From NCBI RefSeq assembly GCF_000189635.1, contig NW_002476199.1, positions 186,001 to 250,000 on the forward strand: a DNA stretch of 64,000 nucleotides, in the 5' to 3' direction. This document shows positions 3,722 through 22,000 of this stretch, piece by piece. The stretch is from Tetrahymena thermophila SB210. Taxonomy: Eukaryota > Ciliophora > Oligohymenophorea > Hymenostomatida > Tetrahymenidae. Both the position numbers and the translations under genes were made by a program. Position 1 is the first letter of the stretch, and each line of letters begins with the position of its first letter. The notes under the pieces are model-generated. The model made no database searches, had not been told where the DNA came from, and saw nothing but the letters and a program-made list of their open reading frames with translations.

Positions 3722-4637
3722 GTTAGGCTAAAAGCTATTTTTTTACTATAAAAGTTAATATTCTTGTTTAATATTAATAAAGAAGCTTCTTAATTTTTAT
3801 AAATTTATGACTATAAAAAGATACACTTAAATCTTTAAACAAAAATATATTACAATCATCAAGCTTAAAGCTGATTAGTATCAAAAAATTATATTTTTCA
3901 AGAATAAAATTATTTATTTCACTATTAAAATAAAAAAATACATTAATGAGTTAATTTTAAATAATTATTTGACATAATCAATTGATTGCTTTATTTTTAA
4001 TTTAATTTTTACTATTTTATATTATTTTTATATAATTTTTAATAAAAAAAATGAAGAATTGTTTTAAACTGATTTATTCAATCTTAAAAAAAAATTTTAT
4101 TTTATTTTCTTTTACTAATTTACAAGATAATAATTTTAAAAACAATTTTGTTTAAAAGTAAACAAAACTATTTATTTCAATCTTAATAATTTAAAAATAT
4201 AATTTATTACAAAAAATTACTGCTATTTATTATTTAATTGCTTTTTTTATATCTTAAGTTATAGATTTAGTTTATTACAATATTTTAGACATAAAAAATG
4301 AATATTTAGTTTTTAATTGTAAATATTTTTTTAATATAATAAATTATTTAGCAAATTTGGCAACTTTACTGCTTGATTAGATTCAATGTAAAATAAAATT
4401 AAACAAACCCTTCTTTATCACAAATTTAGGAGAGGTAATTAATAATTTGGGTACGAATAGAATTAAGAAAGAGATGAATAATTAAATTAGTATTTGCAGA
4501 ATTTAATAACCATTAATGATTAATTATGTAAAATAATTACTTTTTTAAACATAATAAAATTTGAGGTACATAAATTAATTATTCAAATAATATTTATCTA
4601 TCTTTAAATAAGATTTAAAAGCAATATATTCTTTCTT
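3722..4637. other. Divergent AT-rich promoter region
   Basis: 916 bp between two head-to-head genes. It has extreme A/T content with long A and T runs. No coding signal was seen on either strand. It probably contains both promoters, but no specific element can be named. Confidence 0.5.
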
Positions 4638-7600
4638 ATGAAGAGAGAGATTGACAAGAATAAATAAAATGAAATAGCATTTTTAGATCAAGCAGAAGCA
4701 AGGGTTTCAAAATATAATCAAGATTTTCTTTAAAGAAACAAATAAGATCATTATTAATTTGTTAGGATGGAGTAACTTTTATTATAGACTTAGTAGAGTT
4801 AGTCTCCAGATATACCTACTATCTCCAGAACTGAAAATATGCCATCAGATAAGCAGAATAAGTAAAATAGTTCAAATAGTAAAAAAAATAGCAGAGCTGA
4901 ATAAAGAGATTCGCTAAGTAAAATATTTAAAATGAGGGAGAATTCTGACCCAAGTGGTGCATGCCATAGAAACGATAATAAATCTTTACCTAAATTAGTG
5001 TAAAATTAAGATGCTTTATAAAAGATAAATCACTAAATTTTACAAAGAACATATTTAAACTAAAAGAATGAATAAATTTTTTCTAAAAATCCTCTAGTAA
5101 ATTATACATTCAATCAAATAGAATTAAATAGCAATAGTCCTTTAAAAAGATCAGTTTATTAAAAGAGCAGCAATACATAATATAGGAATAGTATGGTCAA
5201 TTACTAAAGAGTTACACAAAACATTAATTACAAGCCCATTAATACAATAAATAACAGTGAGTTAGTTGATTAAACAGGTAAAAGCAAAGAAGATGAGTTG
5301 GAAAGTTTATTTAATGAGAATTTTACTTAGAACTGCTAAAAATTAGATAATTCTAGGTTGAAATAACAGGAAATAGAATCACTAAATTACTTGAAAAGAG
5401 CTAGCTTTAAGAAGCCTTAATTTAAGCTAAATATGAGTTATCAAAAAAGAGTTATGGAAAACAGATAAATTAATCAATAAAAAAACTAAAGCAATGATAC
5501 AAAATAAATGTCATCAGTACTTAACATTTAGCCCCTTCAGAATGCTTACAAGAACTTTGAAACTAATGGAGAAGACAGCTTAAGTAATACAAGTGAGATC
5601 TTAATAAGTAAAGTAGATTAGAGAAACAAAGATGAATTATATTAATTAATAAAAAAAAAATATTAAAATGCCTCATTTTAATAATATCTTCAATAATCAA
5701 ATCAAAATTATGAACCTAGTGAATAGGATATAAATTATTAATCTAACAATACAAAACTTAATTTTCGGACTTCTTCAAATTCAAGGTAAGGTACTAGTAA
5801 TAATCAAAATTATAAAGATAATTATTTACCCAAGAGATAGCCATTTAGCATCTAACCTAAAAAATTTAATGGGAAAGATACTTCTTATTTAGAGAATGAT
5901 ATAATTGGATCTAATTTGAATTAATTTGAAAGAAGTTTGTTGGCTGAGAAAGAGCAGTCTATACTTAAAAGAACTATTTTGGATTCTTAGCTAAACACTC
6001 CTCCTCCAGTTAATTAAAAGCAATAGTAGTTGAATATCTCTTCTCAAAATAAAAATGGAAAAATTATATTACATATAAACAAATCAAGCAATAAGATAGT
6101 AGGATCGATAACTCCTACAGAAAATCAAAGTCATCATAGCTTAGATTAAAACTCATAGAGTAAAATAAATTAAGTAGAAATTTCAAAAATGAATAATTGC
6201 TTAGATAATTTTAACACTAATGATATATCTATAAATGGAACAATTAAACTTAATAGAAAATTTAGTAGCTTAAATAATTTAGACTTTAATACAGATCAAA
6301 TGAATGATTTAGATGAAGGCGCAAGCCAATAAATAAGTACTGATGTGGCTTTAACTAATTCAGGAAAACTATCTTAGTCAACAGAAAAGCAAAAAGTAGC
6401 TAACATAAGATTAGAAAATCAATCAAAATTAGATGAAAATCAAGAGAACTTTACAAATGTCCTTAGTGAAAAAGCAGATAACTAATCTGTTTAAGAAAAT
6501 TCAAACTATGAACAACTTAATGAGTAAAAGCAGTCGATTGAGGCAATTCAGAGAGATGTTAAAGATAATCTTAACTTAGAAATAGATGAATAAGAGCTAA
6601 TCACTCAAGCTAGTTAAAACCATAAATAATTTTCTTCGCCAATAAAATCATTAACTCAGTAAACTCCTAGAGAAAAGAAGATTGTTTAGATTTAACTTGA
6701 AAGACTACATTTTTAAAGCCAATCAAGCTAAGATGCAAGTAAAAATGTATAAATAGGAGATTAAAGATAGTTCATTAGAACAAAAAGAAGCAATCAATCT
6801 TAGCTAACTGAGAGAAAAAACTCTAAATCTTAAAGTTATAACATTGCAAGCTAAAGTAATAAAATAAAATCATCAAACAACATCGATAATAGTTCAGATG
6901 GAAAATCAAGTAAGAGCCCATCTAAAAAACCAATAAAATAAAAAGCATTTAAATAACCTCCGGAAGTTAGCTCTAAGTGTTGGTCTGTTTTTAATTCAGA
7001 CACAAATGAATTCATATTTGGCAAGAGCCATAATTTTCAAGTTGAGATAGCTTCTTTGACTAAAATTATGACATGCTATGTCACAATTAAATTTTTAGAA
7101 GAAAATCAGCTAGATATTAAGAATGTTTTTATAGAGGTTAGCAAAGCTGCAACAAAAACTATAGGTACTACTGCTAATTTAGAAAAAGGTGATTTTGTTT
7201 CTACATATGAGTTACTTTATGGTTTGATGCTTCCAAGTGGAAACGATGCAGCTGTAGTACTTTCAGAAGGTGTAGGATATCTACTTTATTGCTAATAATC
7301 AAAACTTTCATTCACAAACGACAATACTTCAAGTGGAGTACCAGGAGATTAAAAAATTTACGTTAATTATAAATGCAAATCAGAAGCAGGTGGTTTGAAT
7401 TAGTGTATGAATATTTTTATAAAGGAAATGAATAAATAAGCTTAGAAAGTTGGCCTAGAGCGAACTAATTATGCTTGTGTACATGGCCTTTCTAACAAAT
7501 ATAATACAAGTACTGCAAAAGATGTTGGTTTGCTAAGTTGCATAGTAATGAAGCATCCTCTCATTTAAAAGGTAGTTAACACAAAAGAATACGAAACAGT

Positions 7601-7934
7601 CGATGTCCTAGACCAAGAAAAATCTAATTAAGATTAGTATGAGTGGGAAAATACAAACTAAATGCTTGAAAAAAAAGGATATGATGGAGTAAAAACTGGT
7701 GTCACTGAAACTGCAGGGCCTTGTCTTTCTTCAAGTTACAAATGTAAAAGGAATGGAAAATAAGTTGGGCTAATATGTGTGCTTCTTAATTGCAAATCTA
7801 TGGATCATAGATGGCCAGAAACTAAACAATTAATAAAGTGGGCACTTAAAAGTTACTTTCCAAAAGAAAAAAAATAAAGTGAAGCAGATGGGTCGAGCTC
7901 TTACTCTCCTTCTCCACCTCCAAAACAAAAATGA
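4638..7934 (+). CDS. D-alanyl-D-alanine carboxypeptidase-like (peptidase S11) protein with long low-complexity N-terminus
   Basis: Single exon, 1098 residues. The last ~320 residues carry the full penicillin-binding-protein active-site set of DacA-type serine DD-carboxypeptidases: SLTK (nucleophile Ser806, Lys809), the SGN triad (Ser867-Asn869) in LPSGNDAA, and KTG (Lys1019-Gly1021) in YDGVKTG. The family hallmark HGLSNKYNTSTAKDVG lies between the last two. In bacteria these enzymes remove the terminal D-Ala of peptidoglycan pentapeptides. The first ~780 residues are S/N/Q/K-rich with no recognisable domain. No signal peptide is seen, unlike the secreted bacterial enzymes, so the product may be cytoplasmic. 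Ciliates make no peptidoglycan; action on prey-bacterial wall fragments, or a new substrate, is inference. The codon pattern, with UAA/UAG Gln inside the catalytic domain, shows the domain is native to this genome now. An ancient bacterial origin is likely. Confidence 0.9.
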
Positions 7935-16002: not shown

Positions 16003-19000
16003 ATGCAAGAGAATATTTCTCGTTTCTAGATATACAAGCAATGCATGGTTGAGCTTTTACCAAAAGTTGGAAAGCTTATTCCAAAGAATAAAAAAAACCT
16101 AAAAATTGAGGCTGATAAAATATAAGGTATGCAATTAAATAAATGATAGAAGCTTTAAAGATATCTTATCTTATTTTAATAGAAAGCATTAAAACTCTGA
16201 ATGATTAAACATTTGAAAATGCCAATTCTACTATAAACTTTTTAAAAGATTTACTTGACTTGAAAGTGCCAAAAATTACAGAAATAGTGCTTTTTTACCT
16301 TGAAGTAATAAATTATTATTATTTTTAATTTTATAAAAATGGTATTATTTGTTAGCAAACTCTAAAAAATTTAGGAATTTAGTAGGATTCAGAATAATAA
16401 AAATATATTTAATATGAAAAAAAAAAACATAAATATAATTTATTCATTTATTTTATTTTAAAAGAACTTAATAGCAAATTAGCTTATAGATGGATATGCA
16501 AGTTATAGCACAAGCAAAACTTATGAAGATGAAATTTTATAGATGGTAATTGAATGTATTGGTATTAAAGAAGATAACATCCACTTATCAGTAGTTAAAA
16601 TTCTTCACACAATAGTAATCTCTCCTGTCTTCACTATTTATGGGTAATAATAAAAAATTTAGATTAAAATTCTATTTTATGTATTTTTGGATTTTTCAAC
16701 ATTCACAAAAAAGCTAAGTTAAAAAGTTCAAAGAAAAAAAAGATGAAATAAAATAGCGAATTTTTATTGCAAATACATTCAACATATTAGCAATTTTAGG
16801 TAGATAATTAAAAAATATTTTTAATTTTTATTCAAAAAGGGACAATTTAATGTATTTGACACAGGCTTTAATAAATATTTATAGTCGTAAGCATTTAAAA
16901 ATAATTAATTACATATGAAATAGAATTTTTTATATTTATATAATAGAGAATAATAATAGCAAAAGTGCAAGTTTACAAAATATCACTTTGGCTGCTCTTA
17001 AAAGTATAGTTAAAATAGTTTTTGATAGGATGGAGAAACTTACAGAAATAACGAATGAATAATAAGAAATATTTTTTTTTAAGAGATGCATTACATCGAA
17101 TAGAGCAGGAGAATTACTTTTTCAAGATAATTGCACTAGTGGCAATAATTTGAATTAAGAAAATAAGCAAAATTTTGAGTCACCTAAAAATTCATTCTAA
17201 AACCTTAATAGCATTCACTAAGCAAGACTTTCTCAGCATAGTAACAGATAGCAACAATCAGAAAATATGGAAGAAGAACAATTTGACCCAGCAAAAATAT
17301 TAAATTTAAACTAACAATCCTAAGATGATAACTCCTAAAACGTTTTAGATTAACTTTTGAACAATTAAATATAGTTTTACTGCCAATAAACTGTGACTAA
17401 CCTTGTTGATAATACAGTCATTTACTATGAAAAATAAAAATAAGTTGGAGAAGATAATCAGACAAATATGATACCTCTCTTGTGCGTACCTCCTATAAAT
17501 TAAGAAACAACTGAAAAATATACTTAAACTATTTAAGTGAGCATAGAAAATGAAAAGAACTAGGTTTCAGGCAAATACGGATGGTATATTCATTCAATAA
17601 TAATATGAGAATATGAAGTTATTAATTCTATTTTCTTTTTTGTTAATAGGTGCTTTATTTGTAGGAAAACAGCCAATTTTTATTGCAGAGAAACCAGAGT
17701 TGCTATTTGTTGTCCTGAGTGCAAATAAAAGCACATAAAATAGATTGAAGACATATTTTAAATGTAAAGCAACAAATTTTAGATTAAAAAGAACTAATAT
17801 TTAGATGATGGTATTGAGCTATTTAAGATATTATGCAATTTATCAAAAAGAGATGGAGCAAAGTAAATAAATAAATAAATAAAATTCAAATAATTTTTAC
17901 AGATTTTTATTAAACAAATTTTTAGCTTAAATAGCTAAATGAATCCATAGAGCTTAAGATCAAAGATCATTTCTTTAGAAATGCTAAAGGTTATTATAGA
18001 AAATACAGGAATTGTTTTTTTAAGCAACTTTTAGCAGCTGGTAAAGGAGTAATTAATTCATTCTGTGCTCCTCAATTCTATGTCTCAAGATTAAAAAGTT
18101 GTTTAGCTTTCCCTTTCTATCCTAGTTTACTTATTTATTGATTTCAGAGATAACTTAAAGAAAGAATTAGAAGTAATTAATTTAAAGATCGATTGATTAA
18201 TTTATTTATTTTTACAAATATTCTATTTAAATTTGAACAGATGTTTACTAAAGAAATACTTTTGAAGATGCTTGAAAGCAGTAATACTATCTATCATCAT
18301 AGATTTTATGTTTTATAAGTATTCAGTATTATTTTTAAGCTACCTAGAGTTATTTTAGAAATGTTTGCTAATTATGACTGTTAACTCAATTCAAAGAATA
18401 TTGCACAAAATATTGTTGAACAACTTGCTAAAATATCTCAAGGTAAATACTCCAAGGCAGAATACTCAACTCTCTTTTAACCTGGCTAAGAGTAAAATCT
18501 TAGGGAGACAGCACTTTAGTCCTTAGTAGAGATTGTTAAAAATCTTATTCCTTTTACACTTCTCTCTGAAGAGTACTCCTCAATCGGATCACCTTAAATT
18601 GGTAGGTAGGCTATAGATAATCATCATCCTCTTTATGGATCAGATAAGTAAATAGACAAAGCTAGCAAATCAGTAAGTAATATTGACGAAGAAGAACAAA
18701 AAAACACAACTTAAATAAGTAATTTAAAATAAAAAAATCGAGTTTTAATTTAAAAAATTCTTTTAAAAAGCTCAAGTTGAGTCTTTACCAAGAGAAATTC
18801 CTTTTAGCCCCTAAAAGAATGGATCCTCTCAAAATTTAGGAAATACTTCTTAGTTTAACAGTGTCGGTGGTGCTACTGGTGTTTCAGATAGTTCGCTAAA
18901 TCAAGATGTTTTCAATGAAGACACTGTCCAAGAATAGAGGAAGAGAAAAATTTAGATCTAAAAGTGTATTGAAAAGTTTAACTATAAAACTAAATAAGGA

Positions 19001-22000
19001 CTAAATTTTGCTTTTAATGAAAATATTATTGAAAAACCAGTTGATATCAATAAAAAGCCCTCTGAGAATGAAGCTGACGAAAAAGATTTAGCAATTTGGC
19101 AGAGATCTGTGTATTAATTGTCTGAATTATTATACTAATAAAGAGCATCAATTGACAGAGCATAGTTTGGATTATTTTTCGGTGATGAATGTAAATACAA
19201 CTAAGATGTATTTTAGCAGTTCCTATCATACTATGATATGTCTAATCAAAATATAGTCTCTTCTTTAAGAACACTTTTTAAAGTTATGTATCCTCCTAAT
19301 ACTTAAGAAGCTCTTGATAGAATATTGTAATAATTTGGAGAGAAGTATATCAAAGAAAATCCAAATGTCTACAGAAATGCAGGAGTTACTTACACTTTAT
19401 CTTATGCTATAATGATGCTTTAAACGAATCTCTATAATCCATAAATTAAGGAAAAAGAAAAACTAAATTTATAGAAATTTATTAATCTAGTTTCAAAGAT
19501 TGATGATGGAGATGATCTACCTATTGAATAAATTGAGTTTATATTCAACAGTGTTAAAGATCAACCTCTTGGCTTCCATGACTAAGAAGAATATCACATT
19601 AAATAAAAAGAAGCAATTAACTCAGATGCTGTTTTAAAAACAAAAAAATTTAAAGAAGAATAAGAGAAAATGTTAGCATAAGGAAAATAAATCATTCTAA
19701 ATGATAACAATGATGAAGATTCTTAAAAATTCATTAAAGTTCTCAATTCTAATTTTACTAAAGAGTTGCTTGACGTGATATGGAGTCCTTTATTTGCTAC
19801 CTTTTCACAAGGTCTTGAGCAAACAGAAGACAAAAACTTCATCATGAAATGTCTTGAGGGTATTAAATTTTGTATTATGCTTCTTGGGCGTTTCTAGCTA
19901 AACTTTTAATAAGAAACTTTTGTTTAGTGCCTTACTAAGAATACAGGACTCTTATAGGATAAACCTTTTTCAATAAAGAATATCCTTTCTATTTGTTGTA
20001 TGACTGAGATAGCATCTACCAGTGGAAATTGGCTTAGAGGATCTTGGAAGAGCGTGCTAGAGTGCTTATCAAAGATAGACTATTACTTTTAAGGTGATTT
20101 CACTATCAAAGAGTAAGCTTACTAGCAATAGTTGCAACAATTGGAAATAGAAAAGTCAAATTAAAAATTAATTTTTATCTCTCTTGAAAGTAAAAATGCA
20201 GCATTTGATTTTTTTTAATAATATTAATATCATTTTTTTAAAAATAGATGAAGCAATCGATAAAATATTTAGTTCAACTTCTAAATTTGACAGTGATTCA
20301 ATTTAAGATTTTATAGACTGCCTGTGTTAGACTTGCAAATAAGAAATAAATCAGCCTAAACCTAAAACTTTTAGTCTGTTGAGAATTTCAGAGGTAGCAG
20401 AGTTTAATATGGATAGAGTAAGGTATGAATGGAACAAAATTTGGCAAACTTTAAGTATTCTATTTTAGGAGGTAGGAACGAATCATAATTCTTATTGTGC
20501 TTAATTAGTCATAGATTAATTGAAATAGCTAAGTATGAAATTTTTAAAGAAAACTGAGCTGTCTCATTATAGCTTTTAGAAAATGTTCCTCCAACCTTTC
20601 TTGTACATTTTCGAAAATACTAATCGTAAAAATTTTCTTTTTGAAATTTCTTTTTTAATAATTAATAAAATAATATTTGTTTGTAAATAAAGCCGCCAAG
20701 TATGAAATATATGAGTTAGTCTTAAGATGCATAATAATGATAACAAGCATTAACTTTGATAACCTGAGATCTGGATGGAGTGTAATTATTTCAATAGTGA
20801 GACTCACTATTAACAAAAAGATAGATTCATTGATATTACTTGCTTCTTAGGTATTTCTTTCTTTTATTTATTCTTAATCAAATAAGTAAAATTAAATAAA
20901 ATAAAATGACATACATAGATCATAGATTAAATCTTCTTGAAAGACAGAACTCTTGAAAATTTATAAGAAGAAATTCCTTAAATAGTTGATATTTTATGCA
21001 AACTTATAAACTATAAAAATTAACAAATATGCTAGAGTAGCATTAGCTACTTAAACAAACTCATCGATTACCTAGTTTTGCATTCTAAAAGTGTCTAAAA
21101 TACATTTTCTCAATCTTAAAATCTAAGTGACTAGAAGAGTGATCTTAGAATATAATTTGAAGCCAAACAGTAAAGGGCTTAAGAATATGAAAAAATGCTA
21201 TAACGTAAGAATGTTTTTTTGTTTGTTTTTTTTAAATTTTTGCTAAATAAATACTAATTTATTCTAAATAGAACTTTTGATGCCATCTTTATTATGTTTA
21301 AGTAGAACTTTCGAAGAAAATAGACTTACAGTCTAAAGACAAAGAATAGAAGTGCTTTTTAAGTTAGTAGAGTCTTACAGCTATTTATTTACAGAAGAAT
21401 TTTGGCAGGAACTTTTCACATAGTTATTTATCCCATACTTTGAGCATTTAAGTAGCTTTTATGAAGATTAAATAAATAAATAGCAACAATAATTATAATA
21501 GCAATAACAATAGCAGTAATAACAATAATAATAACAATAATAATACTAAAATTAAAATTAATATTAATTCATTGTGCATCATATGAAAGATACTGTTTAA
21601 ATTTCTTACGACTCCTTGATAGAAATTTTCTACTAAAATTTCAATAAACTTTCGTCTTGCCTAAAGTATGTTCTTAATATATTGTAAAAGAGTATTACTC
21701 GTTATTAGAAGGTAGAATTTATTAAATTTTATTTTTTTATTTATTTATAAAAATTTAACTAATTTTAAGGTTACTTCTCAAATTGCTGCTGAATAAATGT
21801 AAAGCTTGCTGTTGAATGTTGGTGAATATTTAACAAATGAGCAGCTTGATCAAGTTCTTGACTTTTTAGGAGTTGTTTTTGAGTCTTCTTTTCCATAAGA
21901 GCTTCAGCAATTATATTAGTCAAATGACCACCTAAAAATGACATACGATCATGTTTTTACTAATAAATTAGTAAATAACATAAATTAAGTTGATATAAAA

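Follow-up and report, generated by a model that had tools for sequence, protein, structure and literature searches.

A multigene Peptidase_S11 family in Tetrahymena thermophila with conserved catalytic motifs and an affinity to planctomycete enzymes

The window analysed here is a 64,000-nucleotide stretch of the Tetrahymena thermophila SB210 genome (contig NW_002476199.1, positions 186,001 to 250,000 of the forward strand), and the subject is a gene within it whose product ends in a Peptidase_S11 (S11) domain (Table 1). Translation of 4638-7934 with genetic code table 6 gives 1098 residues followed by a TGA stop. The reading frame stays open in the 5' direction to 4386, which would yield a version of 1182 amino acids; the start was taken at the ATG at 4638 because the G+C content of 4386-4637 (17.9%) is far below that of the head (25-26%) and the domain (32%). 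There are 82 reassigned TAA/TAG codons in the gene. They encode 70 of the 99 glutamines in the head and 12 (9 + 3) of the 17 in the domain and tail.

Table 1. Features of the S11 gene; positions are those of the window. pLDDT, predicted local distance difference test; pTM, predicted template modelling score; PBP5, penicillin-binding protein 5.
Feature	Residues	Position	Strand	Basis
S11 gene, 1098-residue protein in code 6, intronless single frame, Peptidase_S11 C-terminal		4638..7934	+	
Low-complexity head rich in Q, N, S and K	1-775	4638..6962	+	composition, FoldIndex, no Pfam match
Peptidase_S11 catalytic domain	776-1076	6963..7865	+	Pfam; AlphaFold2 pLDDT 92.8, pTM 0.92
SxxK motif (SLTK), predicted acyl-forming Ser and Lys	806-809	7053..7064	+	
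SxN motif (SGN; SGND from 867)	867-869	7236..7244	+	
Variable loop after the SGND helix	~888-919	7299..7394	+	lower model confidence
KTG motif, the sole KTG of the protein	1019-1021	7692..7700	+	
Arg1058, assigned counterpart of PBP5 Arg248	1058	7809..7811	+	position in alignments only
Low-complexity C-terminal tail, 22 residues after the domain	1077-1098	7866..7931	+	

Pfam was used to identify the domain. Peptidase_S11 matches the last third of the protein with E = 3.3e-38 and a score of 131.9 bits, where the cut-off lies at 27.6, and is the only Pfam family above its cut-off. An earlier note, made from the letters of this DNA, had proposed a bacterial-type DD-carboxypeptidase domain with SxxK (Ser806), SGN (867-869) and KTG (1019-1021) all intact; the search identifies that family and the three motifs are complete and in order. 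The AlphaFold2 model of the domain superposes on the Streptomyces K15 DD-transpeptidase with 1.4 Å over 253 residues and on Escherichia coli PBP5 with 1.7 Å over 242 residues. The PBP5 fold that the note had made its test is thus recovered, with the motifs in order along the sequence. The alignment given to AlphaFold2 held 43 bacterial S11 rows, and the fold match is thus not independent of the sequence match. Arginine occupies the Arg1058 column in 12/12 ciliate, 24/24 planctomycete-type and 28/45 other bacterial rows. In PBP5, Arg248 binds the carboxylates of inhibitors and penicillins (PMC4979060). The best reading of sequence and model is that the window gene encodes a hydrolase of the Peptidase_S11 type that is predicted to be catalytically competent and to act by acyl transfer to serine.

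The domain begins near residue 776, which leaves a head of about 775 residues, close to the ~780 given in the earlier note. The head is 12.8% Q, 13.3% N and 12.3% S and contains no tryptophan. Sixteen 50-residue windows start before residue 776, and FoldIndex is below zero in 14 of them. This composition suggests that the head is disordered. None of the three Pfam matches of the protein at E ≤ 1 falls in the head, and a comparison with the upstream and tail segments of the paralogues gave no recognisable similarity (best E 1.3). The best likeness among segments of the other paralogues, that between the tails of L011 and L018, is weak (E = 0.007). The best 12-residue hydropathy mean within the first 35 residues is 0.41 for the window protein; the corresponding values for three homologues from planctomycetes are 2.46, 2.97 and 2.49. 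By hydropathy, with no dedicated predictor run, the window protein has no signal-like N-terminus of the PBP5 export type, in agreement with the note, which had called the protein free of a signal peptide. The same holds at every candidate start of the window gene and of L009, L012, L016, L018 and L019, where no signal-peptide-like stretch was found (means ≤1.07 vs 2.46-2.97 in the planctomycetes). The window protein is apparently cytosolic, and export would have been lost.

These features separate the window protein from its characterized relatives. The Streptomyces K15 DD-transpeptidase is a bacterial, exported enzyme, and PBP5 is periplasmic, membrane-tethered and built of two domains. Structural alignments give 28-30% identity between the window domain and K15 (PDB 1skf, 1es5); the solved K15 chain lacks a long head, whereas the window protein has one of ~775 residues. 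The NCBIfam model for PBP5 (DacA; PDB 1nzo) scores 62.4 bits on the window protein against a cut-off of 694, and all seven NCBIfam equivalog models listed fall below their own cut-offs. The second, C-terminal beta domain of PBP5, which we take to be Pfam PF07943, has no Pfam match at E ≤ 1 in the window protein, and only the 22-residue tail follows the catalytic domain. The mitochondrial PBP-like protein LACTB (family S12, Pfam PF00144) shares with the window protein a eukaryotic host and the serine beta-lactamase/PBP fold but belongs to another Pfam family, and the LACTB/S12 profile PF00144 is not among the three matches of the window protein at E ≤ 1. The class A beta-lactamase family (Beta-lactamase2) scores 14.6 bits, under its cut-off of 22.

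The genome (101 Mb in 445 contigs, genes in ciliate code 6) was scanned for further members. The Peptidase_S11 profile gave 24 matches that correspond to at least 12 loci on 12 contigs, and the protein query recovered the identical 12 loci. This membership in a family of at least 12 genes had gone unnoticed in the earlier note. Exons had to be joined in 7 of the 11 other loci, and intron patterns differ between paralogues. The 9 of the 11 paralogue domains that were compared are 35-43% identical to the window domain, and all 12 domains keep S-x-T-K, SGND, NTN, KTG-x-T, AG, CL and the downstream arginine. That motifs and arginine stay constant at this level of identity speaks for selection that maintains catalysis, on a substrate whose C-terminal carboxylate is free. 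Among the paralogues, the loop that follows the SGND helix differs strongly. It is very long in L011 and L018 (G000:C91 and C160), which carry long low-complexity inserts there with catalytic motifs intact and which pair in the tree (98 in the Shimodaira-Hasegawa approximate likelihood ratio test, SH-aLRT). Separately, the L015 domain (G000:C291) has 17 extra residues just before the GT motif that are absent from the other 11 domains; they may represent a short intron that is open in frame.

Bacterial contamination or a chance open frame as the source of the S11 gene is ruled out by the 82 reassigned codons (12 of the 17 glutamines in domain and tail), the introns and the 12 loci. The contigs that carry the 11 paralogues are distinct from that of the window gene and range from 55 to 1869 kb; according to the gene models, 7 of these paralogues have introns inside the domain. 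No point in support of this source was found, and we give it practically no chance. The UAA/UAG glutamine codons inside the domain had been taken to show long residence in this genome; the direction of that argument was right, and as a lone argument it is weak. Long residence is better backed by the 12 paralogues on 12 contigs, their 35-43% identity and their differing intron patterns.

The relationship of the family to prokaryotic enzymes was analysed with the ciliate alignment as query against 84,980 prokaryote species, each represented by one genome; of 512 stretches that were confirmed, the 80 best were used. The first three of these 80 are from Planctomycetota; two of them have the lowest E-values (1e-44 and 5e-42), and the third, L021, has 5e-34. 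A hidden Markov model (HMM) of the 12 ciliate domains was scored on 123 distinct domains and gave 189.0-262.1 for the planctomycete type and ≤180.8 for all others. Two trees, of 81 and 135 rows, both place the 12 ciliate domains in one clade and the planctomycete type in another, with the two clades as sisters. Support for the ciliate-planctomycete grouping is 95/95 in the careful 81-row tree, where the bootstrap was unsettled, and 95 SH-aLRT in the 135-row tree. On the trees, the 12 copies share one origin, and their sister among the sequences compared is one planctomycete S11 subtype. It is a subtype because other planctomycete S11 domains (L126, L127, L131) fall elsewhere in the tree. Trp782, Pro866 and Trp1003 of the window protein are common to the ciliates and this subtype. 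Outside the genome, the nearest relatives found belong to the bacterial S11 enzymes, as the earlier note had expected, with T. thermophila as the only eukaryotic genome compared. A viral origin was considered and rejected: a scan of contigs classed as viral (IMG/VR) gave five S11 loci (L100-L104) that are 24-26% identical to the query, and the three viral-contig domains placed in the first tree (L101, L102, L104) sit among the 'other' bacteria.

Three phyla were sampled genome by genome: Planctomycetota and the phyla of G340 (Prevotella locus L096) and G342 (L059). In the Planctomycetota sample 20 of 294 genomes match, 10 with the close type (including the centre genome, G003) and 10 with a distant S11; in the family of G003 (Aeoliella) the matching genomes number 33 of 43. 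Close-type planctomycete genes match either as a single piece (191.0-247.9 bits) or as a pair of pieces (~84-144 bits). The phylum of G340 has 64 matching genomes of 296 (best piece 98.6 bits) and that of G342 has 191 of 200 (best piece 83.2 bits). When two pieces are summed, the weakest close-type gene (G162) reaches 199 bits, the best gene in the G340 phylum 152, and the best listed in the G342 phylum 164.

Planctomycetota were once thought to be wall-less. Their proteins L020, L021 and L022 are chains of ~700 residues with a hydrophobic N-terminus, a Beta-lactamase2 domain, a PG_binding_1 domain and then S11; unlike these three, the window protein has neither the hydrophobic N-terminus nor the two other domains. 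L020, L021 and L022 join two PBP-fold enzymes in one chain. The fusion is not universal in the type, since L122 carries its S11 domain in a 349-residue frame. In Aeoliella straminimaris (L022, 68-5410) the fusion gene has a DUF1611 gene on one side and M14 (zinc carboxypeptidase) and S66 (LD-carboxypeptidase) genes on the other, a possible muropeptide-degrading cluster.

Leaving the substrate aside, we consider it probable that the family is a laterally acquired, amplified and catalytically competent group of DD-carboxypeptidase-type enzymes that was relocated to the cytosol. The donor of the catalytic domain to an ancestor of this ciliate would have been a bacterium that belonged to the Planctomycetota or stood close to them, and neither signal peptide nor wall-binding domain would have come along. 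The direction from bacterium to ciliate is inferred because S11 is widespread in bacteria. The gene would then have been amplified and its copies given differing disordered heads or tails, which could place or regulate individual copies.

Several points weigh against this scenario. The comparison bacterial loci come from the best 80 of 512 stretches, and among these the 5e-34 of L021 is close to the 4e-32 of the Oxalobacteraceae locus that follows. At the border between the planctomycete type and the rest, the HMM scores are only a little apart (189.0 vs 180.8). Raw identity to the window domain is 35, 32 and 37% for planctomycetes and 29-37% for 40 others, and thus fails to single out the former. 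The bootstrap of the 81-row tree had not converged, and at least 8 of its 12 ciliate rows deviate in composition. The true sister could be another eukaryote, as the comparison covered the own genome, prokaryotes and viral contigs. The N-terminal reading covers the window gene and five of the paralogues; of the six others (L010, L011, L013, L014, L015 and L017), L010 (1.9) and L015 (2.19) each have one candidate start that is fairly hydrophobic, and upstream exons beyond those modelled are possible elsewhere too. Against prey muropeptides as the substrate, exon-by-exon searches of the own genome gave no match to Peptidase_S66 (6 of 14 control genomes match) or to NLPC_P60 (9 of 14), and from both tests no fuller muropeptide pathway is visible. 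The genome has a single PG_binding_1 match (G000:C199:721719-721877, minus strand, 1.5e-6) in an open frame of 72 amino acids. The cytosolic site is read from sequence.

Of the functional reading, the chemistry is the most secure element: S11 enzymes act by serine acylation and release of the C-terminal residue. In the window protein, Ser806, activated by Lys809 and the serine of SxN, would attack the peptide bond that precedes a C-terminal D-Ala or Gly while Arg1058 and the KTG strand hold the substrate carboxylate. The last residue would leave, and water would free the shortened peptide from the covalent acyl-enzyme. The likeliest substrates would be stem peptides of prey muropeptides that arrive in the cytosol after digestion. 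This is the weakest step of the proposal, and we place it somewhat short of an even chance.

Other readings differ from the cytosolic muropeptide peptidase mainly in place or substrate, and their odds therefore overlap with it. DD-carboxypeptidases trim stem peptides and leave the wall unopened, which counts against a phagosomal digestive enzyme that trims ingested bacterial walls and whose delivery to the food vacuole would be unconventional. The non-signal-like N-terminus and the long, polar head of the window protein also disfavour such an enzyme, which we consider unlikely even though T. thermophila on a bacterial diet has higher expression of lysosomal proteases and GH18 (PMC7232342; the term 'D-Ala' is absent from its main text). 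Another reading is a sensor or binding protein, in which the S11 site would hold muropeptides or beta-lactams covalently without turnover. The heads may suit signalling, and S11 acyl-enzymes with beta-lactams are among the PDB matches of the domain model; retention of the three-motif residues and the arginine in 12/12 domains speaks for turnover, and a sensor is quite improbable.

The same 12 intact sites, a window head unlike the other heads and the lack of matches to S66 and NlpC/P60 partners would fit an endogenous substrate. The enzymes would then process the C-termini of peptides or side chains whose last residue is Gly or another small one, and the heads would serve for targeting. Glycine is achiral, and a DD-peptidase may accept it; S11 enzymes, however, prefer D-Ala before the cut bond. 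This bolder alternative is a proposal from sequence, and we rate it as rather unlikely. In its sharpest form the enzyme would be the tubulin deglycylase that is still sought: a 2024 paper calls deglycylases 'unidentified' (PMC11244163), and for that reason polyglycine side chains of tubulin are proposed as a candidate substrate. The family would then comprise cytosolic, PBP-derived C-terminal exopeptidases for glycine-ended side chains that have no role in peptidoglycan, at the extreme ciliate tubulin deglycylases each targeted by its head to its own microtubule array. We hold this to be very unlikely.

T. thermophila genes are presumably named 'D-alanyl-D-alanine carboxypeptidase family protein' automatically, and automatic annotation probably already labels these S11 genes; S11 itself is known. 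The unusual aspect is a eukaryotic multigene S11 expansion with complete active sites, apparent loss of export, disordered heads and planctomycete affinity. A peptidoglycan-free organism keeps at least 12 active-site-intact relatives of penicillin targets through deep divergence. Either a bacterivorous protist processes wall peptides intracellularly or an antibiotic-target fold has gained a new eukaryotic job. Beta-lactams are often added to ciliate cultures, and if the enzymes do bind penicillin, these additions would inhibit host proteins. Literature searches found no study of ciliate S11 proteins; several of them are weak as proof of absence, and most subscription papers lay outside their scope. 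A search for Tetrahymena together with D-alanyl-D-alanine carboxypeptidase returned nothing on ciliate enzymes, judged from titles and the openings of abstracts. Seven protease families are reported lost in the parasite Ichthyophthirius; S11 is unlisted in that account, which does not thereby state its presence there (PMC3341644). Carboxypeptidases of unspecified type appear in two further reports, as genes sixfold more numerous in Uronychia and as an activity that evolves fast near the germline centromeres of T. thermophila (PMC8670190, PMC10868616).

Elsewhere in the window, nine other large raw open reading frames have no Pfam match at 0.01, and an open reading frame at 18272-20251 on the plus strand contains a Sec7 domain (1e-40).
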